From Parelaphostrongylus tenuis (Eukaryota; Nematoda; Chromadorea; Rhabditida; Metastrongylidae), in assembly GCA_019055375.1 (NCBI GenBank), contig JAHQIW010001219.1, positions 1-64,000 on the forward strand: 64,000 nucleotides of DNA. Direction: 5' to 3'. How positions within the stretch are numbered: the first letter of the stretch is position 1; each line of letters opens with the position of its first letter. The notes beneath the pieces are model-generated. The model was given only the letters and a program-made list of their open reading frames with translations. It ran no database searches and was not told the origin of the DNA. The position numbers and the translations under genes were made by a program. This document shows, piece after piece, positions 9,960 through 37,865 of this stretch.

Positions 9960-10221
9960 CAGCTAATAAATCATGTGATCTGTAAATGGGCTGTTGTACA
10001 GTCCTATACACGTGCTTCGACTTTACAGTCTCTTCACTCGGGCAGAATCCTCCGTCTTTTAGTCTTCTAGCCAACCCTCTCGGGAGCTTCTACTCTCCCT
10101 ATAAAGAGACGGCGTCGAGAAACGATGTACACTGTAAGTCAAATGAGATTATCACCGAATTTACAGTGCTGTACACTCGATTGCTCTTCGGCTGGTATTT
10201 TTATAATCTTCTACCTTTTTT
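9960..10221 (-). repeat. Ribozyme-bearing foldback element F1, copy a (partial)
   Basis: Shares an extended block with copy b: CTGTAAATGGGCT, GTACAGTCCTATACACGTGC, a hammerhead-like core in reverse, then GTCTTTTAGTCTTCTAGCC and an arm with GACGCCGTCTC on the minus strand. One end lies near 9970. The other side is lost where copy b begins. No transposase or RT coding is visible, so it is a non-autonomous element. Confidence 0.65.
9999..10045 (-). ncRNA. Hammerhead-like motif R1 (F1a), core mutated
   Basis: On the minus strand the core reads GUGAAGA where CUGANGA is expected, so C3 is G. Next comes a perfect 4-bp helix II (GACU/AGUC) with a GUAA loop, then GAAG in place of GAAA, then helix III C-ACGU-G and cleavage triplet GUA. 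Architecture and loop match copy R3. The C3 change should abolish cleavage, so this is a decayed ribozyme. Confidence 0.6.
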
Positions 10222-10258
10222 GAGTGTTTAATTAAGACCACCCTCAAAGTTCAGTATA

Positions 10259-10563
10259 AAAAGGATAAAAGGATAAAGCTCTCGGCGTTGATCAATCCCT
10301 AAGGGATGCGCCATGCATTCGACTTCAATTTTTAACTTCGTTTGAGGTGATTGAATGTACATCTGGCCTTTACAATGACTCGCGGTGGCCTCCCGCTGAA
10401 CCGAGTCAGTGCTGCTTATCCTCCCAGACAAGTCTGAGACCTGTCTGGTACCAATTTACCGACCCCGAAGGGATGAAGGCTTGGTGAGCCATGAGCGCGA
10501 GATCGAACCAGTGATCTCGTGTGCGACACAGTGCACCTCTAACCACTGCGCCACATGCGCCAC
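10259..10563 (-). mobile_element. tRNA-derived SINE (family S1) nested in F1b, with 13-bp target duplication
   Basis: A minus-strand SINE. The tRNA-like head has a textbook A box TGGCGCAGTGG (10543-10553) and B box GGTTCGATCTC (10499-10509). The body includes GGTACCAGACAGGTCTC, AGCAGCACTGACTCGG and GAGTCATTGTAAAGGCC. The 3' end is a short repeat of TTTATCC units. It is flanked by AAAGTTCAGTATA (10246-10258) and AAAGTTCAATATA (10564-10576), a 13-bp target duplication with one mismatch. This shows LINE-type retroposition into the foldback element. Related copies are at 11.6, 18.5, 24.4, 25.3, 28.9, 30.3, 32.1, 34.4, 35.9 and 59.7 kb. Confidence 0.85.
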
Positions 10564-10775
10564 AAAGTTCAATATATCTTATGATTATTATTTGAGCCAA
10601 CATGTCATGTGGACTGTTAATAGGTTCTTGTACAGCCCTATACACGTGTCGGATACACACATGACAACGATACACTTGACTTACAATGTGAATCGTTCGT
10701 CGACGCTACCCCTTCATACGAAGAGTAGGGACTTTTGAGAGGCCTGGTTAGAAGACTAAAAGACGAAGGGTTTCT

Positions 10776-10818
10776 GCCCGACTGACGAGATTGTAAAGTT
10801 GAAGCACGTGTATAGGGC
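10776..10818 (+). ncRNA. Hammerhead-like ribozyme R3 (F1b)
   Basis: Type I layout. Helix I is GCCCGA (10776-10781) with UAGGGC (10813-10818): five pairs and one G-A mismatch. The core CUGACGA (10782-10788) is intact. Helix II is GAUU/AGUU with a GUAA tetraloop (10789-10800). GAAG (10801-10804) replaces GAAA, so A15.1 is G and would wobble with U16.1. Helix III is C-G closed by the palindromic loop ACGU, followed by GUA (10810-10812), after which cleavage is expected. Only A15.1 deviates from the hammerhead consensus. Folded by eye. Confidence 0.7.
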
Positions 10819-10915
10819 TGTACAAAAGCCCATTTACAGATCACATCATATGTTGGCTCAAATAATAATTATGAGATATATTGAAAATTTAGCGTGGTCT
10901 TAATAAAGCACTCGA

Positions 10916-11575
10916 AATGAAGGTATTCACCAAAGTCACGATTTCAGAACTGTTTGGTTGCGATGAAACACTAATTTAATATGTTGATAGATTTCGGCAA
11001 GTCTTCTTAAGACAAATATACATTTTACCATTTTCACGATATTTGAAAGAATCAACAACGTTTTCAGTAAACGTGCACCCTTTATTTTGCCCCTTCTTTT
11101 TGAATGTGTAGGGGCTAAGTGAGAACCAAATGTGATATTGAAGTAACTCATTCACCTTTCAAGACAGACTGTCCCTGAAATCATGTTTTTCCATTTCTTT
11201 AGATTTAAATATGAAGATACCTTCTTTATAGAAATTATAAGCCGGCCTAGAATGACATAGTAGGCTACACAATGCTGCTCTGCCTCTACCACCTGCTGTT
11301 CTCTTCTTCCAAATGAATCATAAAAAATTCATTGATGTCTTCGTGCACTGTATCTCATTCAACATATTAGCTTCGTTATCTTTGAACAAGATATTTTTGA
11401 AAAAAATTGCAGATCTTGAATGGAGTGTGAACTACGTTATCTACATTCATGTTAGGAATATGATTTTCTCTAATCCGTCTTACGTTTCGAACCCATAAAA
11501 ACTTACTGGCACACAATTGCTCAGTTTTACAGCAAGAACCTACTGAAGCATCGCCATCGACAGTGAGCGTAAATA
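10916..11575. other. Unassigned stretch
   Basis: No feature recognised. It includes a 61-aa chance frame at 11313-11498. Confidence 0.35.
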
Positions 11576-11579
11576 AACT

Positions 11580-11745
11580 AGCGTACTAGCCTGCCGATAA
11601 TGAAGTCAGTGCTGCTATCCTTTCCCAAACTCCAATTCGGCGATCGCGCAATTAAAGGTTTGATGAGCCGGAGGCGCGGAAACCAACCAATGACTAGTGA
11701 TGCATGCCACTTCAAATCACCAAATTACACGCGCCTCTATCCCAT
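11580..11745 (-). repeat. Degenerate S1 SINE
   Basis: On the minus strand the body keeps GCTCATCAAACCTTT and GGATAGCAGCACTGACT, both found in the S1 copies at 10.3 and 59.7 kb. The tRNA head is heavily mutated. Confidence 0.5.
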
Positions 11746-11837
11746 CTGACGTCTTCCTCTAGAGATAAATGAACGTCATAGTTTGACTAGACTCGAATAT
11801 ACTCGAACAAATTTGAATAACTTTGTGTGTACAAGGT

Positions 11838-12090
11838 TAAAAAGTTTGTGAGAATGTTAGAGCCTTTTTAAAGTTGTCACGTCAGTGACCATCAGTAGCT
11901 TATGTACGTTCCGGCGGCATCCCTCGTTTCATCAGTGCCATATGCCGCACACTGATCCCTACAGGGGCTGGGAGACGTGTTTTGGTGATAGCACGTGATG
12001 GGACTATCACCGTTATTCCAGTAGCCGATATTGAATATGTGGACATTACCTTCCGGCTGAGTCTTTTCAAACTTCACTATTAATATTCAA
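11838..12090 (-). repeat. Foldback family F2, unit A
   Basis: Begins AAAGTTTGTGAGAATGTT and runs through CACGTCAGTGACC into a GCCGCC-rich hairpin arm. The same start and arm recur in direct orientation at 12094-12190 (unit B left) and inverted at 12240-12325 (unit B right). The distal part (about 11965-12090) is poorly matched. It contains hammerhead-like motif R8 on the minus strand and no coding region. Confidence 0.55.
11893..11942 (-). ncRNA. Hammerhead-like motif R8 (F2A)
   Basis: The minus strand shows an intact CUGAUGA (11935 to 11929), a helix II region that has lost pairing relative to unit B, GGAA in place of GAAA, then C-GUAC-A with cleavage triplet AUA. Helix I pairs CG/GC, G-U and U-A with an A-A mismatch at its base. 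Core and spacing match R7 in unit B. Changes at G12/A13 and helix II make activity unlikely. Confidence 0.45.
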
Positions 12091-12093
12091 AAC

Positions 12094-12325
12094 AGTTTGT
12101 GAGAACGTTCAAAGTCTTTTAGAGGTCATTACGTCAGTGACCGTCAGTGGTCGACAATGGCTGATGTGCCTTCGGCGGTATCGCCTACCTAATCTCCCCA
12201 TCGTTGTTATAGAGTAAGGAAGCGTGTGGCTGTGATGAGGCGGGCGATACCGCCGAAAACGTACGAAAGCCACTGGCATATTAGCCTAGGAAAAACTTCA
12301 GACATTCTTACAAACTAATTAATGT
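12094..12325 (+). repeat. Foldback family F2, unit B
   Basis: The ends are inverted repeats. Left AACAGTTTGTGAGAACGTT...CGGCGGTATCGCC (12094-12190) matches the reverse complement of the right end at 12240-12325, which contains GGCGATACCGCCGAAAACGT and ends ...ACATTCTTACAAACT. The unit is about 230 bp with no ORF. The hairpin GGCGG...CCGCC in each arm is helix II of a hammerhead-like motif (right: R7, fairly complete; left, minus strand 12150-12195: degraded, with a 4-bp helix II and GAAG). Confidence 0.6.
12226..12273 (+). ncRNA. Hammerhead-like ribozyme R7 (F2B)
   Basis: Helix I is GUGGCU (12226-12231) with AGCCAC (12268-12273), a perfect 6 bp. The core is GUGAUGA (12232-12238), so C3 is G. 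Helix II is GGCGG/CCGCC, a perfect 5 bp with a GCGAUA loop (12239-12254). GAAA (12255-12258) is followed by one extra A, then C-GUAC-G and GAA where GUA is expected (U16.1 is A). The junction layout is that of a hammerhead, but C3 and U16.1 changes predict an inactive copy. The related fragment at 17.2 kb keeps GAAAC without the extra A. Confidence 0.55.
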
Positions 12326-12329
12326 TTAT

Positions 12330-15255
12330 AGCGAGATTTTCAAAACAGTCGACTGGGAGACTAGAAGTGGTCTCTACGGCAAATCCTGGAATCTTTCGTG
12401 CTAGGTGGTTTTAAAACTTGTAGTTTTATCTGAAATTTCAAATTAGCTGTGTTAGGGCTCACCCAAATCCTGACTTAATGTATTCCTTGTAAATCTAGTG
12501 GAGTTGGCACTGCCATCACGAGGCTTTTCAGTGACCGATGTGACCGCAGCCAATATTGCAATTACTTGATCAGCGATTTGAAGAGGACACAATCTGGATA
12601 CGATCAGCTAGATAAAAAAGCCTCTTGTGGCTAAAAGGAAAAGGTTTTTCGCCAAATATTGATTACCTGGCTCTTTCGTAGAGAAAAATTGCATAGTAGG
12701 GTTTCTTAAGAAATTAATCCCAGCGAGGAAAATGCTAAATGGGTTTAAAGTGTCTTTTTTTTCGAAATAAATCAACTCACTATGGCAACTGTGCCGTTTG
12801 TTTTTCAGCGATTTCATTTCTCATTCAAAATGGCGTTAGGAGACGTTTCACTCATAAAATTGCGCATGAGTCCGGTCGATTGTGGTGACGTTTTCTCTTT
12901 ATTTTATTGTGAGAGTCATAACTAAGAAGTGCTCATGACTGTTCTATAATTGATATTGTTGGTTTCTTAGAGAGTTTTACATGTGTAAAGAGATTATAAA
13001 ACAAAGTGAAACCTTCTAGAGCAACTCGGATTGCTGGTTGTTGAAATAAATCCTTAGATTCATGCATTTCGAAATCTGGTATGAGACAGAAGTTTGTCGA
13101 ATACCAAGAACAAATCAGTCACTGAGTTTCTAACCCGCTTTCAATTTTTAGTCTCTCCTTAGTCGTTGGCTTCAGTGCCTCTTTCCCTTATTGTTGCTAG
13201 CTTTTAATAAATAGCTGACTTGTGAGTATCTATCATTTAAATAATTCATATGAGCGCTAGACATTGGTTCCAGACGCTCAGCGTGCCGTAAGTTAACTTC
13301 CTCGCATTAGAATGAATTTCTGTTTATTACTATTATACACTATTTACGACTTCTCATCACAATTTGCTGCGAGTTTCCGAGCAATTTTTGCATTGGATTC
13401 GTTTTCTCATATTCGTCCTCTGCAAAGGTCTTCGAGTACCTGAGACAACGCCTCACTTACAACTGCCATACCTCGCCCTCTTTCGCATTCTCATTAAATC
13501 ACACACTAGGATCCGCATAATCTCTATTTAGCAATCAGTGGCGAGTCAAAAATCGGCCAACTGGCCTTTTTAGATTGCCCTTCTATTGTTTCAGTCATAA
13601 AATGAAAAGGGTCCAAAATGAACTTAAAGGACTTGAAAATGGTTTGAAGGTCACTACTACCGTGCCCACATACCCCTAGTGTATGTGAGGTATCTTGTAG
13701 GTCAACTAAAGTAGTCTAGTTGCATTTTCAGTCCTAACGCTGCTGTTGTTGTTTGGTTGCATATTGTTGCTAACTGGGAGGCACTCCTGGAATTACGGTG
13801 TCGAGCGGGTAGTTTATGCCTCATTCAACTTCAACTGGGTCTCCATATCTGGGTAGGACTTCGGCGCTCTTTTGGTTCAGTTCAACTGAGGTGGAATTCT
13901 ACCAGAAATAACTAGCATCCTGATTGTAACTAATTGCAAGTGAGCGACTCTATTTGGTCACCAAGGACCAGCGAGTGCTCTTTGGCCAGGCTCATAGAAC
14001 ACCTTATGCAGATCACTTCTTCAGTGAAAACTCAATTTTAAGAAATGAGAAAAATGCTTTTCATATGGGTCTTCTAACGCTACCACTCATACTAAGATCA
14101 AATATTGTTTTGGGAACAAAAAATGAGACCATTGTGACACCTCAGTGACACCCGAATTTTGCAAGAGATCTCATCACCGAGTTCTGCTTGTGAAGTTTCA
14201 TGAAGCTGAGCTGGAAAAGTACTTCTGGCATGTTCAAGAAAGTGAAAGTAGCATCAATTTACCAGCAAGCAGTCTTCGCAAAGATCGCAACTTCATCATC
14301 ATTAAGAAGTTACTCGAAAAGAGGAGCAAGGTGGAACTTGAACTTATTAATATACTCAGCTAATTTGACGAAAAACTGGTAGTTGTAATCTTTGCAGGGT
14401 AACTTACATCGCCTTGGACAAAAAAGGTCATCGCCGGAATGGGTAAAGTGCGGGTACGATTTCTATCCAGAATCGAATATTCCACATATCACTCAGTATC
14501 CTTGCAAAGAAGTTCACTGAAGCAGCTCGTAAATGGCTTAGTCTGAAGAGACATATTGGCAAACGTGTGTTTCGCTATCCACATTGGCGAATGCAGACGA
14601 GCCATTACTACATTCTGCTATGATACAAAATTCTTAACGGAAACTTCTATGCAATATTTTTTCTCGAAGTCCCTTTTCTGACCCCAAAATCTCTGTAGAA
14701 GAAAAACCGCTTGAAATTCAGCTGTTTGAAGTCCAAGTTGCAGCACGATGCATAAAGAGAGACATAACTCCGAAACCCGATGATTTCGACTGCCGAATTT
14801 ACTGTAGTCGGAGGCGACGATCTGCATAGAGTTCAAAAGTTCGGCTCCTTCCAAATCTCACAGTGTGGTACATAACACTGGTGACTCACCCATATAAGTC
14901 TTAAAAAGGCTGTGACGAAGGCGGGCGGCCGAAAAGTTAACTGTCAAATCCCTCAAGAAGAAGACTTACATACACTTCTTGGAGCCCATATGACGTAATT
15001 TCTTCACAAAGGTGGGGATCGTAAATAGTGTAGGACATTACGCAAGTTATGCTACCTAAGGTAAATGATAAAAGTATCTGTCGTAGCTATCATCTGATGT
15101 GGTTGAGTGGACTATGCAGGGTATCGACAAGGACTATACTTCTGTTCAATTTCAGTAGTTGAGATGAGGTACAGTCTGCTGAGCAGACAGGATTTTGAAA
15201 GTAACTTTTCTACATAGGTCATGTCTAAATCGTGTGACTGGTGATAGAAGTCGAT
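12330..15255. other. Unassigned stretch
   Basis: Nearly 3 kb without a recognised element. Small adjacent frames at 13954-14148 and 14145-14363 (plus) overlap by 4 bases but match no family I know. A stop-rich continuation to 14630 gives no further support. Confidence 0.35.
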
Positions 15256-15259
15256 AAGG

Positions 15260-16400
15260 GAATATTTTTTCTCTATTCCAACCTATTGATTATGAGAGCG
15301 TTGAGTTGTTTCCTCTATCCAACTTATTGAATATGTGAAAGCGTATGATGTCTATCAGCACTTGTCGATCAAGGTGTAGAGCCGTCCTTTGAACGAATTT
15401 TATCTTCTGTTGAGACGTAGCACAGAAATACGGCTTTTCCTTCAGGCCCTCACCGCACTTATAGAAAAAGAGATTTGAAAAGCCAACACTAGATCACCAA
15501 AGCTGTTCACTGCTGCACTACAATGGTTAATGAATTCGCCTGACTGGGACGAAAATAGCATTCATTGATGGAAACTTCCTATTCAGACATTCGCTTTGCG
15601 GACAACATTCTTACCTTTTCTAGAAGTACCAATGAAGCAAAGACAATATTCAGTGAGTTCAACGAAGCGGGAAAAAAGATTGGGGTGCGCATAAACAGGA
15701 CAAAGATCCAGTTTATGAAGATTCCATGGTGCGAAGGTGATCGAAATCAACTGGATGAGCACTGATAACGGAGACCAGCTCGCACGTATGCCTTGGACGT
15801 TCAATGAACATGGCGAACAATATGAAGGAGAAATTAGACAAAAGAAGGAGAACATCAGGGGGCGCATCCAGTCTTCCCAAAGGAGCCACCGAATATATAC
15901 AGGGCCAAAACTCCGAGTTTAACTTTTCGATCCAGCAGTTTCACCGCGCTTTGTCATGCCTTTGCTCATAGTTCAACCACGTCAAAGCATATGTGCCCTA
16001 GTCACAGAACATTCGAACCATTTTCCGTTGAAATGTTTTCGTTAATTATAAAACCTAGCAGTTTAAGTAACTCATCACTTCAAAGACTGACTCATCTTCG
16101 GATTTCAGGAGGTTATAACTCGGTAGTGAAAATGAGCCAAACATATAAGAAGATGAGCAGATGGTAGATGGATGAAAAGAGCAGTGCAGTGGACTTCAAG
16201 ATTGTGCAAACCTTCTCCTGGATAAAAGCCGAAGCCATGAGTAAATGTATTCGTGGCTAACGTCAACCATACGTGCCCGTAGATGGAAACTAGTTGAGCA
16301 TTAGGGAATCGAAACAGACCACCATGGACGACAGTTGTGGGAGAGAAGAACGGATGGAATTTATGCTCGGGCCCCACTACTAGTGAAGACAGGCCATTTG
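15260..16400 (+). pseudogene. RTE-type LINE ORF remnant, subfamily A, copy 1
   Basis: The plus strand, across frames, gives PTDYESVE near 15280 (RT motif A), SPKLFTAALQW (15490-15525), IRFADNILTFSRSTNEAKT (15580-15640, catalytic FADD changed to FADN), FNEAGKKIGVRINRTK, then after about 15930 a weaker stretch. MKRAVQWTSR with a downstream ETS and PWTTVVGEKNGW...GP at 16150-16380 form the C-terminus. This is the RTE RT palm followed by its characteristic tail. The endonuclease domain is absent (5' truncation). FADN and many frameshifts show it is dead. The minus-strand 110-aa frame at 16105-16437 is its shadow. Confidence 0.75.
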
Positions 16401-16439
16401 AGTAGGGCCTTACTGCTACAGAAAGCGGGTCCTTCAAGT

Positions 16440-16535
16440 AAAAAAGTTAGCATTATTGCTGTCGTTGCTGTTGTTGCTTCAGTTGCAGTTATTGTTGCTA
16501 TTGTCGTTAATGTTGCCGTTTTTTTCGTCTATGCA
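16440..16535 (+). repeat. Imperfect GTT/GCT trinucleotide tract
   Basis: A run of GTTGCT/GTTATT/GTCGTT triplets, giving an artificial valine/alanine-rich frame. It sits right behind the RTE-A copy, where LINE 3' tails often carry simple repeats, but a link is only inference. Confidence 0.6.
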
Positions 16536-16539
16536 AATT

Positions 16540-17185
16540 CTAGTTTATGAGCTCGTGCTTATTAAAGGAGGAGTTTCTGAAAATGCTTTTTTTAGTGTTT
16601 TAGCTGGGCAGATTTTATAATGAAACATAAATGTAAATACCGAAAACACGGCCTGAATATCTCATGTGAGGAAAAAATTCGCGGAAGCCTTACTTTATCA
16701 GGTTTATTGTTTGTTCTCAGATCTCCGATCAACATTTGCGGTATTCTAATGCCGGACCTTTTTTATTTCATTTTCAAGCTCCTCCATTTTTACAAATTAT
16801 GACGCTGTAGAAAACCATTCAGAAATTGAAATAGTAGCAAAAAGTAGCTGTTACCAATGCTACTATACGAATTGCTGACGTCGTGATATCAATTACACCT
16901 GCGAGAACAGGCGAAGACCGCTAATCAACTTTATAATTCTCGTATGTGGTACCTATAAAATTTGCATTAATTGTATTCACCTGCTCATTGACGGTAAATG
17001 AAACATCTTTGTTTAGATACAATTTGATATGTATTATACGTACGACTTTGACTTGCCAACCTCGAAAAGTCTCTAAACATTCTTAGGGAGTATACTGACC
17101 GTTTAGAGCGAGGTTTAAAAACCGTCGATGAAATGGATTTTCACACATTCACTGCCAGCAGCAATCTATTGTCTGAAAAAATGGT
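16540..17185. other. Unassigned stretch
   Basis: No feature recognised. Confidence 0.35.
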
Positions 17186-17235
17186 GAATATAATGTGCTA
17201 TGGACGATACCGCCGAAACGCACTTATTGCTTTGA
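17186..17235 (+). repeat. F2 ribozyme-arm fragment
   Basis: GACGATACCGCCGAAACGCA (17203-17222) matches the helix II 3' strand, GAAA and helix III of F2 motif R7, continuing CUUAUUGC. The 5' core is not recognisable, so only the 3' half survives. Confidence 0.45.
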
Positions 17236-17239
17236 AATT

Positions 17240-17750: not shown

Positions 17751-17754
17751 AAGT

Positions 17755-18562: not shown

Positions 18563-18564
18563 CT

Positions 18565-19795
18565 AATGAGGTGATTGTAGAAGTAGACAGGAGATGGTTA
18601 TAATTAGGTATTCTCAGCTCATCGGTATGATGCCAAGAATTGCACGACTACTGTAGAATTGTTTTTCTGGACAGAAACACAGCTTCATAACAAAAACAAT
18701 GGGCTTTTTTCTACTTTCTCAGGCTTTCTCTAAAATCAGACCACTATGAAAGACTTTTTTCCTTTTATTCTACTTTCTTTTCGTTTTTCTCATCAATTAT
18801 CGTTCCTTTTGCTTTTTCACTAGCACACAGATGGATATACTTTCTTTTCACTTAAGAAGTCATATGTGTGAGGAGGCTGCAGATGTGTGTGCAAATTTTA
18901 TCCAGCCTAAATTGAGCAATTTTTTAGCTTTATTTATTACTTCGTTCTCTTCTTATTCTAACGGAAGGGTGTGATGTGAAATATGACGGAAAGAATTCTG
19001 AGATACGAGCAGAACTCGGATCCTGAGATGGTTTTCGAACGTCCGATTATCCTTTCTAGAGGCGAGCAATTTCTCTAGTTAAAATGAACATTCAGAGTTC
19101 TACATACAAGTAGAAGCCTGAGTTTTCCAATCTTAAGCTTATTCATGGAATTTATCGAAAAAATTGGTTTACCATTAATTTTCCCCCACTTCAGCGCACA
19201 GCATAAGCTAAAATAGATATGTTACGAAAAGTTGAAAAACTTGGTTGATTTCTGAACGAACATTGAACTCAGTGAAGCTTGCTGCGACCGCCTCAGACGT
19301 CGTGAAAGTTTACAAAAGAATCAAAAAGAGTATGGCATCGAATGACTCCATAATTGATTTGACGCTTTTTAGTAGTAGTATAACGAAAGCTATTTGCTGT
19401 AAAGTTTTTTATTGCACATCGAATTTGTTCCTTTTGGGATTATCATATTTTTGATGGTGGGCTCTAAGTGAGATTGTTTATTCAAAGAGTGCTGAACAGC
19501 TGTCTTCGTTTATTTTGTATAAAGGAAATCCTTATGGGCAAACATGATACATGGTGTGTTACATGAAAACATATCAAATCTTTTGGTAATTTTTAGCTCC
19601 TTACAACGATCTCGCGCTTCTCTTTATTGAAGTGATATTTTATTCGAAAAAGCGAAAAGGATGATAAAAAGATATGAATAGGGAAATCATGCCGGAAACA
19701 CATATTTTCTGTCGTTTTGTACCTTTACACTCGACTGCTTTCATAGACCTCGGTCAAAACAGTGCATTATCTGTAACATATCTTAAGCCTTTCAT
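18565..19795. other. Unassigned, with a T/C-rich tract at 18690-18830
   Basis: No gene recognised. The pyrimidine-rich stretch is low complexity. Confidence 0.35.
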
Positions 19796-19817
19796 GACTT
19801 TTGTTATGGCACCTGTA

Positions 19818-19866
19818 CGGTGCTAGTCACTCCTTCGACATTGCAGCCTCGTCAACTGTACGGTGC
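19818..19866 (-). ncRNA. Hammerhead-like motif R5 (F1c left arm), degraded
   Basis: The minus strand has UUGACGA (C3 changed to U), helix II GGC/GUC with a GCAA-containing loop, GAAG, then a disrupted helix III and triplet. Recognisable only by alignment with R4. Confidence 0.4.
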
Positions 19867-20168
19867 TTTTCGGTTCAGCCAAGCCCTTACAGGAGGACAT
19901 ACCCTTTAGTTTATAAGGAAATTGGAGCCGCATTACTCACAAAAACTGCCGTTTTGAGCGAGATTTATGAAAAGCAGTCGGATGAAAAGATATAATTCAT
20001 TCTATCAGCTATGAGCGGTCGACTGTTGGTCACTGCAATGTCAGAGAATTCTCACCTGACAAACGGTGATTTTGCAATTCTACGTCGATTTCTTTATATG
20101 TAGGGGTGGTTTTCCCCCTGCAAGGGTTTTGGTTTTGCAAGGGTGCAAGGGCTGAACCAAAAGACACC

Positions 20169-20211
20169 GTGCTACTGATGAGACTGCAAGATCGAAACAC
20201 GTGCCTAGCAC
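20169..20211 (+). ncRNA. Hammerhead-like ribozyme R4 (F1c right arm)
   Basis: Helix I is GUGCUA (20169-20174) with UAGCAC (20206-20211), six perfect pairs of different sequence from R3 (GCCCGA/UAGGGC). The core is CUGAUGA (20175-20181). Helix II (20182-20193) has G-C, A-U, a C-A mismatch and U-G around a GCAA tetraloop. GAAA (20194-20197) is intact. Helix III is C-ACGU-G. The cleavage triplet is GCC instead of GUH, so the conserved U16.1 is C and activity is doubtful. It has the best core of family F1. Confidence 0.7.
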
Positions 20212-20234
20212 TGTAAAAGTGTTATGACGGGCTT

Positions 20235-20470
20235 CATGAAAAGTTTAATGTATGTTAACAAATTATAAACTTTTTCGTTTTAGTGTGTCTTCAGAAAGAA
20301 CTGATCATCAGTCTAAGCTGACTGAAAATTATAGTCCCAGTAAATGCTATCTGATAACGATTGTCAATTTTTGAACTGATTCAAAGCTTTACCACCTGTA
20401 ATACAAAAACTACCAATAACGTAGTCATATATGGCTCATTTGTTACTGTTGAGTACATGTTACATGCTAT
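20235..20470. other. Unassigned spacer
   Basis: Short AT-rich gap between F1c and the RTE-B fragment. Nothing seen. Confidence 0.3.
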
Positions 20471-20474
20471 CTGT

Positions 20475-21115
20475 GGGTGCAGATGGTTGTTACAACATGA
20501 TGAACGACCTAGCTCCAGAGTTGAGCAGGAGGAAACTAGCGGTTTGGGAACGTCTAAGAGCAGCGAAGATGTAGTAAAGAGAACAAAGAACATCCGACTC
20601 CGAGCCCACCTTTTCGATTCGACAATCATCCCTGCCTTTAACGTATGCAGCAGAAATCTGGTCGTTACTTAAGCAGGATGAATGATCACTTGGCGTTACC
20701 GAACGCGCAGTCGAAAGGTCAATGCTAGAAGTACCCTGCATCTCGCAAATGAGAGAAAGGCTCCAAAGTTCCGACCTACGTCAACGATCGAAAATTCGAG
20801 ACGTCGTTCTACACGCCAGGATATCGAAATAAGGTGGGCCGGACACGTGATGCGCTTCAACGACAACCGATGGACGAGAGCCGTTACCGACTGGATTCCT
20901 CGGGATGTCAAGCGCTTTAAAGGAAGACCACTGACCCGTTGGTCCGATTTCTTCACGAAAGCGATGGAAGAAAGATATGATGCTCAGCGAATTCCTAGAG
21001 CAAGGAGGACCCAGTGGTCTACTCTTGCACGCGATAGGGAAAAAATGGAAGAGTTGCTGGTGCCCGCTCGAATTACTCGACGATCAACGGGACAACAGGT
21101 GATACAGGTGATATG
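20475..21115 (+). pseudogene. RTE-type LINE C-terminal fragment, subfamily B, copy 1
   Basis: Across frames: NDLAPELSRRKLAVWERL, LRAHLFDSTIIPAF, YAAEIWSLL, TERAVERSMLEV, SKIRDVVLHA, RWAGHVMRFNDNRWTRAV, WIPRDVKR, GRPLTRWSDFF and RREKMEELLVPAR-like residues. This is the post-RT tail of RTE elements. A 159-aa open frame (20682-21161) covers the last third. The 3' end has a short repeat, ACAGGTGATACAGGTGATA, as expected for an RTE tail. The RT palm and endonuclease are missing. It is distinct from subfamily A in its longer C-terminus (QRIPRARRTQWSTLARDR). Confidence 0.78.
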
Positions 21116-21164
21116 GCTCATATTCATTACTGTGTTCTTATGTTCATACGTACCTATTTGATTA

Positions 21165-22839: not shown

Positions 22840-23130
22840 GACGAAAATAAGGTGGGCCGGACACGTGATGCGCTTCATCGACAACCGATGGACGAGAGCC
22901 GTTACCGACTGGATTCCTCGGGACGTCAAGCGCTCTGAAGGAAGACCACTGACCCGTCGGTCCGATTTTTTCACAAAAGCGATAGAAGAAAGATGTGATG
23001 CTCAGCGAATCCCTAGAACGAGGAGGACCCACTGGGCTACTCTTGCACGCGATAGGGAAAAAATGGAAGAGTTGCTGGTACCCGCCCGAGTCACTCGACG
23101 ATCAACGGGACGACAGTTGATACAGGTGGC
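22840..23130 (+). mobile_element. RTE-B copy 2, 5'-truncated insertion with 10-bp target duplication
   Basis: Encodes IRWAGHVMRFIDNRWTRAV, TDWIPRDVKR, GRPLTRRSDFFTKAIEER and LLVPARVTRRSTGRQ, nearly the same as copy 1. It starts abruptly in the middle of the reading frame and ends at TTGATACAGGTGGC. AGTGACGAGT occurs immediately before (22830-22839) and after (23131-23140), a perfect 10-bp target duplication. This is a classic dead-on-arrival LINE insertion. The open frame at 22838-23305 crosses the insertion end and is not a gene. Confidence 0.85.
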
Positions 23131-27200: not shown

Positions 27201-27204
27201 GATC

Positions 27205-28872: not shown

Positions 28873-28874
28873 TG

Positions 28875-29162: not shown

Positions 29163-29164
29163 GA

Positions 29165-30280: not shown

Positions 30281-30284
30281 GAAT

Positions 30285-30445: not shown

Positions 30446-30504
30446 ACAAGTATATTGTCAGTTTCAAACTCATCAAACTGACTCAAAATTTTTTGCAGTA
30501 ATAT

Positions 30505-30965
30505 GATCCAAATTCGACTTTAGACGATAGTTAAACCCGCGTTTTAGTTATACCGTGTGCGCGTGCTTCCACTACACCACCGAGGCCACCCCTTTTCCAC
30601 GTTTCTTTCTTCAATATATTCTGTCGTAGCTGTCAGCCACCAACTTTTAGCGAGTTTGGTTGGGTAGGCAGATATCGCCATCAAACCCTGTAAAGCTGAC
30701 AGCCATTCAAAATGAATTATCTATTTGAACTCATCATTTTTTACTGCTTTTTCAGCATAATCAAAACATCATCAAAAAGCATAGAGTGGTGAGCGAAACA
30801 TCGACCTCAGGAGGGAGGTTAAATCCGCGTTTCATTCATACTAGAGCACGAGCTTTATCGAGGAAATAATGGTAAATACAACGGTGGTCTCGAAGAAGAA
30901 GTGGTAGCACATGTAACGGTATGGGTAGTGTGCGAGTTCAGCTCCCACCTAAGGTTGAATTTTCG
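30505..30965 (-). repeat. Cluster of tRNA-like repeats (S2 and a third type)
   Basis: 30515-30600 (minus) has GGTGGTGTAGTGGAAGCACG and a GTTTAACTATCGTC arm, an S2 head. 30730-30870 (minus) has an S2 head with the shared GTCGATGTTTCGCTCACCAC tail. 30895-30965 (plus) has GTGGTAGCACATGTAACGG and GAGTTCAGCTCCCACC, resembling 17.4 kb. None folds into a full cloverleaf. A short inverted pair GCTGTCAGCC/GCTGACAGCC lies at about 30630 and 30700. Confidence 0.5.
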
Positions 30966-31149
30966 CGTGTTACTCTGTCTGTGATTTTGGATGATCTATT
31001 GTCAGTCTGAGAGATGTAGGGACTGATCATATTGGGACATGAGGTTGCAGCAGTAACCACCATTCGCCATGGCATTTCTATCCACTAAATTGCAAGAGCT
31101 TTCTGCAATTTACAGTTGTGTAGATTTGATTTGCTGGCATGTACTAGCT

Positions 31150-31300
31150 CAACTTGCTACTTATATGGTCCTCTTCCGTATTTTGGGTGCCAACAACTCT
31201 TCCATTCATTTCGTTGTCTTGCAACCGTTGCAAAATAAATTGTCGAATTTGTGCGTGGATACAATTGTAAACTGTCATTGTCACGTTTTGTGCTGACTGA
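31150..31300 (-). pseudogene. RTE C-terminal relic
   Basis: The minus strand reads FATVARQRNEWKSCWHPKYG, matching the RTE tail W.T.AR.RNEW..CWGP. Upstream residues (LYPRTNSTIY) fit loosely. No other part of the ORF is visible nearby. Confidence 0.5.
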
Positions 31301-31304
31301 GTGA

Positions 31305-32095
31305 TGAACGCTGCTCCAGTGTAATTTTTTACGGAATACCGAAACTGTTTTTCTAGACGTTCCAAATTTCATTACCACATGCTTTTATCACCCTAGGGAG
31401 TTGAAAGAATGTTTGCCCCATTACCACTCTGATTTTCCGAAACGACAGCGCGTCATCAAAATGGTCAGCCGCCTGTTCAAAAATACATAGGAAGTGGTTC
31501 AAAAATCATCGAGAGTTGTTGGATCGCCGCTTTTCTGACCACATCTTATCCCTAGTTTGATTTCGATAGCAAATTTCTAGAAAAAATTTTGATTTTTCCA
31601 ACGCCACTGTCACTAATTCGGGAAGTTCAAGTGAAGCAGAGGCGATTATTAAGGAATGAAACACAGTTCTAGATAAGAACCGATGAGGAACGAGTGAGCA
31701 AATAGGAATGAACGGTAGCAGAAGAAGAGAGATGAATGAGATGGATGCGGATCGGATCGGGGACTGCAGTAGAGGTCGACTTTGTACGTCTTCTATCTAA
31801 CTATCTAGTGACTCTAGGAAAGAGATCTTCCTTGATTTACGAAAATAACAGTAGTCGAAAAATTATTGTTGGTAGAATCCTTTAAAAAAGTGGGTCGATT
31901 GACAATTCATTCATGAATATGGCTCTCAAAAATCTATATATCTTCTCATCAACCTTCCCTCGCCCAGTAATGCGCCTGCTCACATTGTCAGCATACGTAC
32001 TTCGTTCCTTTTGCAAGAAAAAGACCATATTTTTATACAGTTATTGTATGAGAGTTCCAAAATAGGTACTTTTGTGCAATAAAGTCTTCCTATAT
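31305..32095. other. Unassigned, purine-rich at 31640-31770
   Basis: No gene recognised. Confidence 0.3.
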
Positions 32096-32099
32096 TGAA

Positions 32100-32330
32100 T
32101 CTTCATGGCTTGAGTGTAGCGTAGTGGTTGAAGTTGGCCTGCTAATACTCAAACAATAGATCATTCCATCCTGCGACGTGATATAACCAAGCCCTCTTTC
32201 ACTTTGGTGTGAATAAATCGGAATCTAACATGTCTGAGAAGGCGAAAGACTACAGGCTGAGGCATCGGTAGGCTAGTGGTCATTTATCACATATATCATA
32301 TATGCATTCATTCATTTATACAATGCTAGG
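32100..32330 (+). repeat. S1 SINE, diverged
   Basis: A box GTAGCGTAGTGGTTGAAG, body CTGAGGCATCGGTAGGC and TATATGCATTCATTCA. Module order as in other S1 copies, but strongly mutated. Confidence 0.5.
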
Positions 32331-32452
32331 ATAGACTGTTCTTTTTAAGCCAAGCACGAAATTGTTATAACACATAAATTGACTGTTACTGAAACCTCGC
32401 ATTTCAAAATAATTCCAAAAAAGAATGTCTAAAGCCTAAACGAGGTTGGCAC

Positions 32453-32510
32453 TCCAGGGCCATACACCGGTGTTTCAGAAGTTTCGGCCTCCTCGTCAGT
32501 CACCCCCACC
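32453..32510 (-). ncRNA. Hammerhead ribozyme candidate P1 (PLE-linked), intact core
   Basis: On the minus strand: CUGACGA (32499 to 32493), then a 16-nt helix II of five pairs, including two G-U and one closing G-C, with loop CCGAAA (32492-32477). GAAA (32476-32473) is followed by CA-CCGG-UG (32472-32465), so helix III is two pairs plus A15.1-U16.1 and a palindromic CCGG loop. The cleavage triplet is GUA (G at 32465, U at 32464, A at 32463). Helix I pairs positions 32500-32506 with 32462-32456: A-U, a G-G mismatch, U-G, three G-C and G-U. Every invariant core base is present. Folded by eye. Confidence 0.72.
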
Positions 32511-32721
32511 CCATATTAAGCCTTGCATTGTAGCAAGGACGGAGGTGTATGTGGTGATGGCATAGTGTACAATGACATGGTCCATCACCACTTTTCAGTC
32601 GATGGATTTTGGCTTTTAGATCAAACTCGACCCAAAATATCGACTTTTATTAAACCTCGCATTAACATGTTGTTTTTTTTTTTACATTTAACATACCTCG
32701 CATTGTTATAACACAATATAT

Positions 32722-32768
32722 TCGATTAACGCTCGTTTCGGCTGTTTCGTCTTCTTCAGAACCTGAAA
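32722..32768 (-). ncRNA. Hammerhead-like motif P2 (PLE-linked)
   Basis: The minus strand has CUGAAGA (32759 to 32753), GAAA (32739 to 32736), helix III C-GAGC-G and triplet GUU. Helix I starts U-A, U-A, G-U, G-C. The 13-nt helix II region barely pairs, so the fold is weaker than P1. Core and cleavage residues fit the consensus. Confidence 0.5.
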
Positions 32769-32789
32769 AGATCAGGTCCCCCACATCCC

Positions 32790-33300
32790 AAGCAAACCAA
32801 GGGCCTCCATTACTTAACAGGAAAAAACCACAAAATCTAAATTTTAATTGTACCGAAGTCAAAGCAACTCTTTAACATACTCACCGCATTTTATGAGTCG
32901 TCCACTGTGTTGTCCAAGTGGAGACCAACCATGCAGAGATTACATGGATTGCGAAAGCACGTTTCTCTTCAAAATGACAACGTTATGCACTGTGCCAAAT
33001 CAGGTTTGATTATGAGGAATTTCTTTCTAATGTCCATGTTTGTATCGATAGTGTTCATCTCGTACGCTTCCAAAACCTTATGTGATGAAGTATCATATTC
33101 CTGTGAGAGGATGGTGACTTCTTACTTCAAAGTCCTCCTCTCATCCTGTGGTGGCCTTCCCGCTTCACCGATGCACTTGTGTTCGCAGCTTCACAACAGC
33201 TTACGTAAGCTATACTTGTACTCGTGCAGTCATCGTGTGTTTGTCCTTAGGGTATATTTTGCTTTTGAACGCACAAAATTAGGCTATCCGAGAACGGCTA
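32790..33300 (-). mobile_element. PLE locus 2, left inverted arm
   Basis: Collinear with the left end of locus 1 (bases 1-345 there): CAAGCAAACCAAGGGCCTCC against AAGCCAAACACCTTTAGCAC, then ACATACTCACCGC, AAGTGGAGACCAAC and GAGAGGATGGTGACTTC. It is the 3' UTR and distal GIY-YIG region of a minus-strand PLE. The 133-aa plus frame at 32907-33308 is antisense to it and not a gene. Confidence 0.65.
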
Positions 33301-33302
33301 TA

Positions 33303-34375
33303 ATATAAAGAGATACCGAAAGCCGTATTATACTGGTTCGTCCAATATCTCCTCATCCCTCACAGATGAAGGAGTGCTTGAGAAAAACATGTTCAAAACA
33401 GTATTCTAAGTGTGTTTAGGAAAAGAGGAGCAGATAAAGTCCTTGAAACTGCCTCGAAAAAATAGCCATTTTTAATATAGTTTTGGAAAAGCGTTCAGAG
33501 GAAATAACGGGCCCGGAAAGAAAATCTCCAACTAGAGCAAATTTTCGTTTGTCGTACCACTCTCTCAAAACGGGATAGGTTCAACTATCAAACGTTGTTT
33601 GACAGGTACAGGTTTGGAGAAATAGGCAACGATGACCGAAAAAGTCATTAAATACTCTAGCGTGGTAGCTACCTTGCAACGCTTACATGACCGTCTTTGT
33701 ACAATGCAAGAGTGCTTAATGTGTTTCAACGGTGAAGACGGTGATTACATGAGTACGGTATGGTTTACCTCTTATAAAGCGAGCGTCGGAAAGGGAAGAT
33801 CACTCTGCGTCTGTTTGACAGAACACCTGAACGAGAAGCTGACACCTGAACGATACACCTCACTGGGCTCGCATAGAACATAACGTGAGGATTCTGGAGT
33901 AGAAGTCACCATCCTCTCTCAGGAATATGACACCTTATTGCAAAGGATTTGGAAGCGTTCTGCATAAACACCATCACTTCAAACGTGAACTACGTAAAGG
34001 AATGCCTCGAAATCACACATGATTTGATGCAATATATAAAAGTGCTACTTTGTTGAGAATGGTGTATTTGCAGTTCATGTGATCTCCAGCGGTTGGTCTC
34101 CATTAGGAGAATTCAGCGGATAACCGGGAGGTACGTGAAAAAAGCTACTTCTTGCTTGATTTGATTGAAATATTGGCTTGATGATTGTTTTTGCAAGTAA
34201 TGAGGTGTTTGGCTGACTGGTTCAAGGGCGAGCTGCTCTCTAAAAAGTTGAAAACATCAAAACATCGGCTAACCTATAAATTTTTTATAACAACCTTGTG
34301 TTTGGCTTGAGTAAAGATCTGTAAATCAATGAAGAATGTCGAGGTTAATAGTGAAGCGGTCATGGAATTTGCTAC
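33303..34375 (+). pseudogene. PLE locus 2, right arm: connector and decayed GIY-YIG
   Basis: Plus strand, homologous to 2620-3680. Junction near 33300 at CGAAAGCCGTA (locus 1 has CGAAAGCCAAGTA). The RT is missing except for its end. 33632-33883 keeps DRLCTMQECLMC (cysteine cluster) and VWFTSYKASVGKGRSLCVCL...EHLNEK, in which the GIY-YIG motif is destroyed. The 3' UTR follows, with a GAAAAC tail motif near 34242 and GAGGTTAATAGTGAAGCGG near the end. As at locus 1 it is head to head with a minus-strand copy. Confidence 0.7.
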
Positions 34376-34404
34376 GAATAGAGTAAGATGCATAGTGCAT
34401 CCGT

Positions 34405-34707
34405 CGGAAAGGATAAAGCTCGCGGAGTTGATCAATCCCTCAGGGATGCGACATGCATTCGTCGTAAATTTTTAACTTCGTTTAAGGTGTTTGAGTGCAT
34501 ATCTGACCTTTACAATGACTCGCAGTAGCCTCCCGCTGTACCGAGTCAGTGCTGCTTCTCCTCCCAGACAAGTCTGAGACCAGTATGGTACCAATTTACC
34601 GACCCCGGAGAGATGAGAGGCTTGGAGAGCCATGAGCGCGAGATCGATCTACTGACCTCGTGTGTGACGCAGAGCATCTCTAACCACTGCCCCACATGCG
34701 CTGTGCC
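34405..34707 (-). repeat. S1 SINE, nearly full length
   Basis: Close to the nested copy at 10.3 kb in the same orientation: GGATAAAGCTCGCGGAGTTG, TCCCGCTGTACCGAGTCAGT, GGTACCAATTTACCGACCCC and the head CAGTGGTTAGAGATGC on the minus strand. The A box is damaged (GGGGCAGTGG). It lies immediately after the PLE 3' end. Confidence 0.75.
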
Positions 34708-34709
34708 AT

Positions 34710-35880
34710 TTTGTTAATTCTTAGTTATTACAATTTTGACGTCTAAATATACATGATCTGAATTTTTTTTTTGAACGTACTGAGTTCAAATGATTGAAAT
34801 CGAATGTAGATTGATTTTATTATGACACATTCCGCCTATGTCCAAGGATATTTCGATCATATAGTAGTCAGAATTCATTCGATTAACGTCGAAAATTTTC
34901 GTCATGTTCAAAACATTCCAAAGCCACATTAGTATAGGGTTTTTTCCGGATTAATTGTTTAGATGCAATGAGGCAAGCTTCCACACAGGCCGCTAAAAAC
35001 TATTCAATGAGCATTCATTTCTTTGTGAAACGCTTCGATTTCAATTTTGAGGACGTTCCGGACGAGATATCCTCGTTAGAAGTGGTTGATACAGCTATGA
35101 AGGGTGTCAAATGAAGGAATGGATTTGATGAGTGGCGCTTGCTCGAAAATAGTTGATCGGTAACTTTCTACTGAACTAAATGTTTGCCTGACGGTGCAAA
35201 TATTAGACGGCTACCGCTGACGACAAATGCGATGAGATCAGTTATATGTAAACCTAATTTGAGACGATGGAAATGAGAATACAATAGATTTTGTGTATAG
35301 TGCCAGTTCACATTATATGGGTCGTATTGGTTTTTGTGAATGATTCATTTATGTTCAATTGGCTATAAAATGGTAATAAATAGCTGCCAGGATATAAGTG
35401 TGTTCATAGCCACCACTCTCCATTGAGAATTCTAAAAAGCTCATCATATTGAAAAATTCAGAATGCGCTTAACTTCACTCAGGACAATGTTCACTCCACC
35501 GCTCTATCTGTCTCATTCAGAACTCCTGCATATCTGGGAAACTCTTGCAATAAGTGAATTGAATGAATTTCTAAAACTTAACAGAATTATTTAAGAGTTT
35601 TTAGCGGTAGAAAAATGTCAATTGGATTATATTGCTTTAGGCCGGAGAGATTTATAATCTGAAATTTCGATTCACGTTGTTGGTCACAGATTGTAGAGTT
35701 ATCCATCTTATATGTCAAGATATCGAAAATCTAGCGTGCAGGAGGATCTCATGAGGTGAACATCAGCTACTGAAATTAAAACGTTAGCGATTGTTTTTTA
35801 AAAAGACAACAGCAGGGAAATACCGAGTTAAAGCTCAAAGAATCACTGAAGCAACACATGATGGCCGAAAAATGTGCTGT
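34710..35880. other. Unassigned stretch
   Basis: No feature recognised. Confidence 0.3.
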
Positions 35881-35884
35881 TATT

Positions 35885-36115
35885 TGTATTTTCGCAAGGC
35901 TCGGGAAGCGCTCTGGTTAGAAGTGTCCTGCTTTACACACTGGATTAGCTCCTTGTCCAATTGAGTGCTGTGGTCTCCCCAAGTTCATCCTTCTGGATTG
36001 GGCAAGTTGTTACTTGCCTTGCCCTGTCCGGAAGGATAGAAGCATTGGACCTATTCGTAGCCGTACAATCACAGTGTCGCATCAAACCCAGTATTCATTT
36101 ATCAGTCAGTGAAAG
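35885..36115 (+). repeat. S1 SINE, diverged
   Basis: Plus-strand head (GCGCTCTGGTTAGAAGTG), body GGATTGGGCAAGTTG, GGAAGGATAGAAGCATTGGA and a weak 3' match. Low conservation. Confidence 0.5.
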
Positions 36116-36119
36116 GTCA

Positions 36120-37675
36120 ACGAGGTAGTTTTATCGATTAATGGTTCACTCTCCAGTAAGTAAAGTGGAAAAAGCTTAGAAATGGCTCAAGTGGCTTGGA
36201 ATAGTTTTGAAAGATTATAATCAACGACTATGCGTACACAAAGGTTACGCGTGATCGTTAAAGAGTTAAGCCTAACCAGTTGTAAAACCTAACATTCATC
36301 GCGGAATTACGAATGAACCTCAACTTAAGGTAAAGATAAGGATCATTTCCGTTATCGGGCAGGGATTTTCTGAACGGACCTCTTTTGGCGTACATAAACT
36401 TTCCATTGGGCCATCAGTGATCGTTCCAAAGCATAAATTTCGTTGAATTCAGAAACATACTCTATTTTTGAAAAGATCTGCTTATAGCGCTGCAGCATTC
36501 ACCGTAAAATTGCTCCACATGTGTCGCGTGTTATCCAGAGAAATTCTGTAATTTGCTTGAAAAATTCTTCTGCGTTTGTAGAAGAAACTTTGCATCGTTT
36601 TAATGCCTACGCCTTTCATTTTTATTACATACTGCTAAATAAACTTACTAGCAAGGCCTAAGCCGAAGCACGAAAAGCATATGAGCATGTAGAGGAAATC
36701 TTCACAGATCAGTGTCATATACGCTACTTTAGCTTTATGCAAAAACGGAGGAAATTGCTAAAATTAATAACAAAAATTGCACTCCACATATTAATACCGC
36801 CTGCACGATTTATAGATTGCAGCTGTCGTTCCACTATTACCACACATACTAGCCTATACAATTCCTTGCTGCAATGCAGTAACATGTCTTTTTCGAAAAT
36901 AAGCAAAGTGTTGGTAACAGCGGAACTTACACTATCGAGTGGTTACTAGCATTTTTGGGGAAGAGCTCTGTCGTGCGCAACAAAAGCGCGATATTGAAAC
37001 ATAATTGTTACAGCGCTAGATGAAGGCTTTTCTAAGAAGAAAATAAAATTTTCCGAGATTCAATCCTTCAAATGATTGTTAACAGCCTCGTAGAAAGTCT
37101 TTGCTCGCCAAGAAACTCACTCTGAAAGATCTCTGCCTGAACAAGGAAATGATCCAAAAATAGTTGCTGCAAATCTTTCTAAGACGAATCACACAGTTTA
37201 TATGCACTTAATAGGTTCTGCAACAAAACACTAACCACTGACATCTTTAGGTTTAAGCGATTTCCTCTAATATCAGGATTTTAATCGGAGTAAATTGCGC
37301 GCCCAAAAATTAGGCTTATTAATATTATTGATGGAGATTAATGTGCGAATAACATACTGGCAAGTCCATTAAATGTTACAAATGATTCAGAAATTTCTGA
37401 ATTTCTGAATTCCGAATTTTGCATAATTCATAGCGAATTGAAAGGTTTTTGTAACATGAAGTATGAATTACAAAGAATCTCACTTGGCTCAGATTTTATA
37501 TATAACACAAGAATGAAAAGGCGTATGATTCATCCAGAAATGGAAATGTTTCGAGTAGCTAAAGACTGCCATAAGCACTGCTTAGAAGTTCGCCATTGCA
37601 CGATAACATTGAAGCAATTCATTTATAAGGAATTTGAGACGGTAGATTGTTACTTGAGAAGTAATATGAAGTATA
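36120..37675. other. Unassigned stretch
   Basis: Nothing recognised up to the F1d repeat. The 132-aa plus frame at 37438-37836 runs through F1d and is not a credible gene. Confidence 0.35.
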
Positions 37676-37679
37676 TCAT

Positions 37680-37865
37680 ACCTTTTGTTCTGAGTGTTCT
37701 CTTAAGACCACGCTCAAATTTCAACATACCTCGTCATTGTTATTTGAGCCAGTTATATGGTCTGTTAAATGGGTTGACTTATAGAGCCCAAGACACGTGT
37801 TTCGACCCTGACGGTCTCACCACTCATCCCGCGTAATAATAATGGTGAGATATATTATGATGTAT
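37680..37865 (-). repeat. Ribozyme-bearing foldback element F1, copy d (partial)
   Basis: CTTAAGACCACGCTCAAATT, GTTATTTGAGCCAGTTATAT, ATGGTCTGTTAAATGGG and GACACGTGTTTCGACC align with the F1b left end followed by a reverse-oriented hammerhead-like core. The matching inverted end is not seen, so about half an element remains. Confidence 0.6.
37785..37833 (-). ncRNA. Hammerhead-like motif R6 (F1d)
   Basis: The minus strand has GUGGUGA in place of CUGANGA (C3 to G, A6 to G). Helix II GACC/GGUC is a perfect 4 bp (37804-37816). GAAA (37803-37800) is intact, helix III is C-ACGU-G, and the triplet is GUC, the commonest natural cleavage site. The 3' half is fully consensus and the 5' core is mutated. 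Confidence 0.55.

Follow-up and report, generated by a model that had tools for sequence, protein, structure and literature searches.

Short non-coding retroelements with a hammerhead ribozyme (retrozymes) and Penelope-like elements (PLEs) are the described systems that come closest to F1, a repeat that we analyzed in a 64,000-nt stretch of DNA from the nematode Parelaphostrongylus tenuis (the window; assembly GCA_019055375.1, contig JAHQIW010001219.1, here C950) and in the complete 481.5-Mb assembly, the basis of our genome-wide counts. F1 resembles the metazoan retrozymes of the non-long terminal repeat (non-LTR) class in being non-coding, with a unit within the range of 150-450 bp and a GC content below 50%, and also in its type I hammerhead motif, its direct tandems and its target duplications of more than 4 bp (PMC7229834, PMC7761336). 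Metazoan retrozymes are further characterized by self-cleavage, by abundant RNA in linear and circular form and by the absence of PBS and PPT, and canonical type I motifs have tertiary contacts between loop 1 and loop 2. The axolotl hammerhead HHR_Amex1 has a helix III like that of F1, a single pair closed by a palindromic tetraloop (PMC7229834, PMC7761336); one of the two axolotl motifs is built in this way, and axolotl hammerheads cleave better as dimers (PMC7229834). Unlike metazoan retrozymes, F1 mostly forms head-to-head inverted pairs and has two alternative 3' ends. The word "inverted" is absent from the main text of PMC7229834, and no inverted retrozyme was found in the surveyed literature on hammerheads with transposons, foldbacks, PLEs and nematodes, a survey of incomplete coverage.

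The likeness to endonuclease-bearing PLEs extends to direct and head-to-head repeats, an optional tail, a hammerhead motif and 5' truncations (PMC3846280, PMC11167929). Published PLEs have tails of 30-40 bp (PMC3846280, PMC11167929) and target duplications of 8-10 bp, and head-to-head is the most frequent inverted form of Penelope elements, explained there by self-priming on an antisense template (PMC3846280). A purified PLE protein cleaves the two target strands and extends each of them; reverse transcription starts at two internal sites of the RNA, the interval between them being the tail, and the strands are alike in their start site (PMC11167929). Unlike PLEs, which encode a telomerase-like reverse transcriptase (RT) and a GIY-YIG endonuclease, F1 has no open reading frame (ORF). 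PLEs and Terminons have been named as likely helpers of retrozymes, on the grounds that type I hammerheads are present in both and that they co-occur in genomes (PMC7761336).

The satellite-type hammerheads of newts and salamanders share the weak helix III with F1 and cleave better as dimers (PMC6155905, PMC7229834), but they lie in satellite or tandem repeats, whereas F1 forms dispersed short inserts. The Tm1 Mutator/foldback elements of root-knot nematodes have a similar inverted-repeat look (PMC3169594); unlike Tm1, F1 also occurs as single units (6 of the 38 clusters described below) or direct tandems, without inverted ends. Here we present evidence that F1 is a retrozyme-type non-coding element with a type I hammerhead motif which, in our judgement with good probability, is copied in trans by PLE enzymes.

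Results

Conservation of the hammerhead motif across the genome

A preliminary description of the window had proposed hammerhead cores in dispersed foldback repeats and expected genome copies to share the core and the helix pairing. In order to examine this, we searched the assembly for exact matches to CTGANGA-N12-GAARCACGTGT, a pattern that leaves helices I and II free. It was present at 10,087 places (as RNA, CUGANGA-N12-GAARCACGUGU), the reversed control pattern at none. Two samples of loci were then used: the first 30 pattern matches in contig order (in two of them, L085 and L090, the match is off-centre in a shorter locus), and the best-scored 40 of 3615 similarity candidates. The similarity query included part of the tail and favored copies with one full end, leaving the opposite end unselected. 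Left out before counting were L003, L010 and L011, near-duplicates of L002, as well as L001 and L004-L008, which represent the same places as the window or L009-L013; one further similarity match, on contig C949, lies outside the locus set.

At the 30 pattern loci, helix II was paired at 89% of positions, against 73% when the 3' strands were re-dealt (as high in 0 of 2000 re-deals), and helix I in 82% against 77% (5 of 2000). Helix II came in several types, including GACU/GGUC, GAUC/GAUC, GUCU/GGAC, GGCU/GGCC and CUCU/GGAG, and 21 of the 30 loci had every hammerhead feature that was scored. Similarity-picked copies were compared in an alignment (A2) of 69 rows, in which five arms of the window stand beside 64 segments from the genome; L016:1098-1162 and the antisense artefact L002:1244-1302 were omitted. 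The hammerhead cells of this alignment were 88.7% paired, compared with at most 45.4% when the structure was slid. Among 500 shuffles of the 69 rows, 17 reached this level of pairing and 13 the observed covariation score. The majority of rows reads CUGACGA / GAAA / GUA with helices I-III all paired, as the preliminary description had anticipated for genome copies. Helix III of F1 is C-ACGU-G, a single pair capped by a palindrome.

A permissive Rfam search identified Hammerhead_1 twice in L057 (27.7 bits, E 0.0032), below the gathering score of 34. The Rfam models are silent on the F1 arms of the window (see below). This silence, together with the failure of four of the five window arms in a strict test, could be read as a hammerhead likeness that is due to chance or to a protein-binding CACGTG palindrome in a repeat. 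The 10,087 matches against none for the reversed pattern, the compensating changes in helix II and the Rfam match on young copies make this exceedingly improbable and, as far as sequence and pairing are concerned, already refute it. The hammerhead motif is therefore real genome-wide at these two levels, and self-cleavage is predicted.

The strand of helix I behind the cut (10813-10831 in the window, and the same place in other F1 copies) can also pair downstream, as GGGCU...AGCCC. Since this hairpin is paired in 85.5% of cells over the 69 rows (with covariation not above shuffles), it may compete with helix I and is a possible switch after cleavage.

Arrangement of F1 units and their two 3' ends

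The F1 unit is about 317 nt long and non-coding, with a GC content of 42.6% and a longest stop-to-stop frame of 69 codons. As reference we used L026, a single insert of 326 nt between perfect 10-bp repeats GATTTCAAGA. Mapping with its unit U by blastn placed 38 clusters at 35 loci. The head-to-head form accounted for 29 of the 38 clusters, six were single and 15 contained a direct tandem junction; in none of the 38 did both outer units face inward. The hammerhead span was present in both orientations in 23 clusters. Among the first 100 matches listed, neighbors within 600 bp were outward in 11 cases, inward in one and on the same strand in four, and the same-strand neighbors were spaced 316-337 nt apart. 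The claim that the cores face outwards is well supported by these numbers, and the proposal that F1 is a non-autonomous, retrozyme-like element arranged as outward inverted pairs also held, the retrozyme features that were looked at being present in F1. The notion of a separate foldback family was given up, given the single and direct-tandem inserts. F1-specific patterns had no match in viral contigs, and TACCTT...GAGTG, with 2 mismatches, was found at chance level.

Outer 3' ends fell into two kinds, 44 nt apart: one at unit position u320 or beyond, the other at u271-296 (median 282). The optional 3' tail of F1 therefore measures 44 nt. In 23 of the 29 head-to-head clusters, there was one end of each kind.

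The arms in the window, at least about 160 nt long and with conserved ends, and the existence of a Mutator/foldback family in root-knot nematodes (PMC3169594) would suit a foldback or Mutator-type DNA transposon in which a hammerhead lies by coincidence within long terminal inverted repeats. Such an element would not be expected to occur as single units like L026 with its perfect 10-bp duplication, in direct tandems, with truncation points that vary among copies, or with outer ends that are unlike each other in most pairs. On account of these four features the transposon is already disfavored, and we regard it as very unlikely.

Target duplications and a young insert

Target duplications of F1 measure 10-15 bp. 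Counting those of score 9 or more (10-15 bp, at most one mismatch, up to 14 nt off the mapped ends), we found them at 10 of the 38 clusters, compared with 2.2% of re-paired flanks. Duplications of this length would also be left by a SINE-like (short interspersed) element moved by an RTE- or LINE-type (long interspersed) RT, with head-to-head pairs arising via twin priming, and the window does contain non-PLE RT remnants, for which the RTE label comes from the names of related proteins. The predominance of head-to-head clusters with outward outer units, the two defined 3' ends, the fit of the published marks to PLEs, the agreement of distances with the PLE of this genome (see below) and the lack of a poly-A or microsatellite end in the few loci viewed (an uncounted impression) all speak for a PLE instead; we consider a SINE-like origin improbable, if somewhat less so than the transposon.

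A young insert was found at L057, where an F1 tandem lies within the right arm of a Penelope pair whose arms are 99.9% alike over 1747 nt. The tandem has a period of 317 nt, its copies are 99.7% alike, and both hammerheads are intact. It is flanked on both sides by the 13-nt duplication TGTTGATTTTTGC, and the left arm of the PLE provides the uninterrupted site. The 3' end at the target is tail-less; the tail is internal, at the tandem junction. This position would be expected if the RT had started at an internal site of the RNA and continued along a tandem or circular template.

Comparison with the PLEs of the same genome

The PLE of the window (RVT_1 E 4.6e-5, 23.7 bits, below the curated cut-off of 29.6) yielded an RT piece that had 7668 candidates in the genome; open frames of 893 aa and up to 902 aa were present among the 150 scored. 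Among the ten PLE loci studied, L055 contains tandem copies of 2985 bp, and L056 and L057 contain head-to-head pairs. The left arm of L056 is about 46 nt shorter at its end than the right, and GAGAGTATTG is present on both sides. PLE 3' ends were taken as alignment ends, those of L056 and L057 being the ones checked against flanks; after exclusion of 6 rows ending at the query end, the L004/L009 place, a short L063 row and the window row, 23 were kept, and they form two groups of 12 and 11. The PLEs carry a minimal motif, CUGAAGA-N12-GAAACGUC, without a helix III loop (L055:2661-2860 (-) and other PLE loci), which we take to be hammerhead-like from the consensus. The helix III of F1, in contrast, is looped. 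The predicted cut lies 65 and 109 nt from the two 3' ends of F1; the corresponding PLE medians are 60.5 (n=12) and 108 (n=11).

These nearly equal distances, a unit length of 317 nt that differs little from the 306 nt between the ORFs of the tandem PLE in L055, and the tandem and inverted architecture common to both raise the question of whether F1 is a deletion derivative, descended from the pseudo-LTR (pLTR) of a Penelope family of this genome that lost its ORF, rather than an unrelated hitchhiker. A comparison of the F1 unit with this one PLE inter-ORF region gave a similarity within the shuffled range, a result that also counts against a tie of F1 to PLEs, and the difference in helix III points away from descent. 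When the ten PLE loci were searched with the F1 unit, L057 gave the nested insert as well as a weak, short match, and L064 gave one piece. We therefore consider a pLTR origin doubtful, although it is the strongest competitor of copying in trans by PLE enzymes. A stretch of PLE 3' sequence (L009:1339-1401) lies about 0.6 kb from an F1 composite.

F1 copies and other features of the window

Local comparisons within the window connected the F1 arms 9942-10215, 10563-10649, 10673-10925, 19720-19880, 20150-20312 and 37678-37835 (Table 1). What had been described as two separate copies, 9960-10221 and 10222-10915, turned out to be parts of a single composite, about 9942-10921, with units in the order minus, minus, plus, interrupted by a SINE-like insert; one outer end is tail-less and the other tailed. 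The half motif noted in the second of these copies is indeed present, as the rest of unit 2. Duplications of 3 bp (TTC) and of TA at 10211/10926 were discarded because the region proved to be one composite. Element d has a possible target duplication, TATGAAGTATATCA / TATGATGTATTTGA, with 11 of 14 positions identical as read by eye.

The SINE-like insert, which we presume to be tRNA-derived and on the minus strand from its A- and B-box-like letters, interrupts the F1 unit with a 13-nt duplication. Copies of this repeat were seen at 10259-10563, 34408-34701 and 59840-59923, the last only 62% alike.

Table 1. Coordinates of F1 units, hammerhead stretches and associated features in the window
Position	Strand	Feature	Evidence
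9..3595		PLE pair, head-to-head; candidate helper type, no sequence link to F1	inverted repeats, RVT_1, sequence
9942..10215	-	F1 unit 1, u10-282, outer end without tail	blastn of L026 unit U
9999..10045	-	unit 1 hammerhead, C3 changed to G (GUGAAGA), remaining core intact; predicted inactive	alignment A1, descriptor scan
10218..10256	-	unit 2, 5'-truncated: 3' tail part u284-322, direct tandem with unit 1	blastn, L026 unit
10259..10563	- (presumed)	SINE-like insert interrupting unit 2, flanks AAAGTTCAGTATA / AAAGTTCAATATA (10246-10258 / 10564-10576)	sequence, related window repeats
10563..10649	-	remainder of unit 2, u209-295, starts at about CACGTG	blastn, local comparison
10673..10925	+	unit 3, u78-326, tailed, head-to-head with units 1-2	blastn, local comparison
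10774..10820	+	intact-core hammerhead: CUGACGA 10782-10788, helix II 10789-10800, GAAG, C-ACGU-G 10805-10810, UA	descriptor scan
19720..20312		F1 element c, inverted arms about 19720-19880 and 20150-20312	local comparisons
19808..19869	-	element c left-arm hammerhead, decayed	alignment, similarity match
20167..20213	+	element c right-arm hammerhead: CUGAUGA and GAAA retained, helix I 6/6, cut site GCC	alignment, descriptor
37678..37860		F1 element d: tailed minus arm 37678-37835 joined to short tail-less plus 3' end	local comparison, blastn
37773..37837	-	element d hammerhead, C3 and A6 altered	alignment, similarity match
40500..40577	-	probable extra decayed F1 arm without core	weak matches (E 0.096, E 0.013); sequence

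A hammerhead-like stretch was present in five arms: 10768-10831 (+), 9988-10051 (-), 20161-20223 (+), 19808-19869 (-) and 37773-37837 (-). A type I hammerhead had been proposed for three copies. The motif type and the helix III C-ACGU-G stand, but core and UH triplet are both kept only in the arm at 10782, where the predicted cut is after 10812. Likewise, both arms of element c do span the stretch, as had been proposed, but the left one is decayed and the right one has GCC at the cut. C3 was lost in three of the five arms (9988-10051, 19808-19869, 37773-37837), and the F1 copies of the window are old.

The strict hammerhead descriptor (core, helices I-III and UH) matched two places in the window, 10782 (+) and 32499 (-); 1500 dinucleotide shuffles of the window gave 11 matches in total, and no shuffle had two. 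The pattern CUGANGA-N10-14-GAARCACGTG occurred twice (10782, 20175), against once across all 1500 shuffles. A looser score was less decisive: the best of 60 shuffles reached 21.6, slightly above the arm at 10782 (21.5), so that the evidence from the window is by itself suggestive, and the decision comes from the genome. At Rfam gathering scores, no hammerhead was found at F1 in the whole window, nor did a permissive search at 9900-11000 and 19750-20300 (two of the three F1 loci) detect one. Covariation on the five window arms alone was not above shuffles (paired cells as high in 133 of 500), and RNAalifold on these arms favored a structure in which a hairpin forms immediately downstream of the cut site.

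The second place, a hammerhead at 32455-32510 (-), has CTGACGA-N16-GAAA and a helix III CA-CCGG-TG that is also palindromic, and it is located about 500-600 nt past Penelope endonuclease remnants. A relative was seen in direct tandem at L062:14-462 (-). Rfam detected no hammerhead at 32300-32700. The type I hammerhead at 57006-57055 (+) is decayed; it matches Rfam Hammerhead_HH9 at 16.7 bits (E 0.13), against a gathering score of 52. More Penelope-like remnants lie at 32781-34220 (head-to-head) and 44575-45896. A direct repeat, 20827-21110 / 22845-23128, 93% alike, overlaps RT remnants common to strongylid nematodes, and for one RT remnant of the window the nearest relatives among the matches listed are proteins of Angiostrongylus and Parelaphostrongylus.

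Discussion

The structural marks of PLEs on F1 inserts suggest that F1 is likely copied by PLE enzymes. Head-to-head is the commonest inverted form of Penelope elements, and the inversion of F1 therefore points to the likely copying enzymes and not to a new kind of fold. Since F1 and the compared PLE region have no sequence in common, the dependence on PLEs is deduced from structure. No RT piece was found in the F1 loci (35 and 3 near-duplicates, viewed with short flanks), and this result, unfavorable as it may be to a link with PLEs, together with frames of at most 69 codons indicates that F1 is not itself an autonomous PLE.

Other observations weigh against copying of a ribozyme-bearing F1 RNA by PLE enzymes. 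With regard to the ribozyme, pair changes on both sides of a helix in A2 were not above shuffles (189 of 500 as high). Of the 66 hammerhead-spanning segments at the 35 similarity loci, 60 were scorable and 26 of the 66 had every scored feature; the CUGANGA core was missing in 15 of the 60. Among the five sources searched with Rfam, a type I match came from L057 only, L033 matched type III (E 0.68), and L014, L019 and L062 were without a match up to E 1. The predicted folds of window arms in longer RNA contexts, judged by pair probabilities, do not contain the hammerhead. With regard to arrangement, one of the neighbor pairs among the first 100 matches listed faces inward, L073 (one of the 30 pattern loci) consists of a plus unit followed by a minus unit, six of the 29 pairs depart from the rule of one tailed and one tail-less end, and 28 of the 38 clusters lack a duplication at score 9. 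Finally, the 5' truncation points show no excess at the cut site, with 3 of 61 truncated starts falling in u214-221. In PMC11167929, mutation of the hammerhead did not abolish insertion, and cleavage by the hammerhead depended on protein. Absence of truncation enrichment at the cut and insertion by the mutants speak against a role of the hammerhead in insertion itself.

We propose that a transcript of one or more F1 units would undergo hammerhead cleavage, perhaps in dimeric form given that helix III has a single pair closed by the palindrome ACGU, and that the role of the ribozyme may be to provide unit-length or circular RNA. The PLE protein would recognize the F1 RNA and make a staggered target cut of about 10-15 nt. 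Reverse transcription would start inside the RNA, either 65 or 109 nt beyond the cut made by the hammerhead. Both target ends would prime, and the two complementary DNAs (cDNAs) would meet and join at their unfinished 5' ends, giving a head-to-head insert with both hammerheads outward. More than one round on a circular or tandem template would give the 317-nt direct tandems. Double priming predicts four features that were all observed: head-to-head inserts, ends at the two sites, truncation that varies where the arms join inside, and a short duplication. Double priming alone does not predict one end of each kind, and the F1 data do not separate it from antisense self-priming as the source of the head-to-head form.

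Measured against the surveyed literature, F1 is new in its insertion signature, in the agreement of its distances with those of PLEs, in its outward form and in its copy number; the idea of PLEs as helpers has already been published (PMC7761336). A wider possibility, which we put forward tentatively and hold to be somewhat less than an even bet, is that animal retrozymes and PLEs form one system, in which a ribozyme-made circular RNA, unrelated in sequence, mimics the 3' layout of a PLE (a hammerhead and two fixed-distance starts of reverse transcription) and is inserted when PLE protein primes from both ends of the cut DNA. If this were true, each insert would tell whether reverse transcription went round a circle.

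To the question of which enzymes move animal retrozymes, F1 contributes structural evidence: PLE marks on its inserts, distances close to those of PLEs, and one young insert for which the uninterrupted site is available. The outward head-to-head arrangement can, in addition, be read simply as the result of priming by both target ends. The more than 10,000 core matches in the genome would make a rich natural data set on hammerhead variation.

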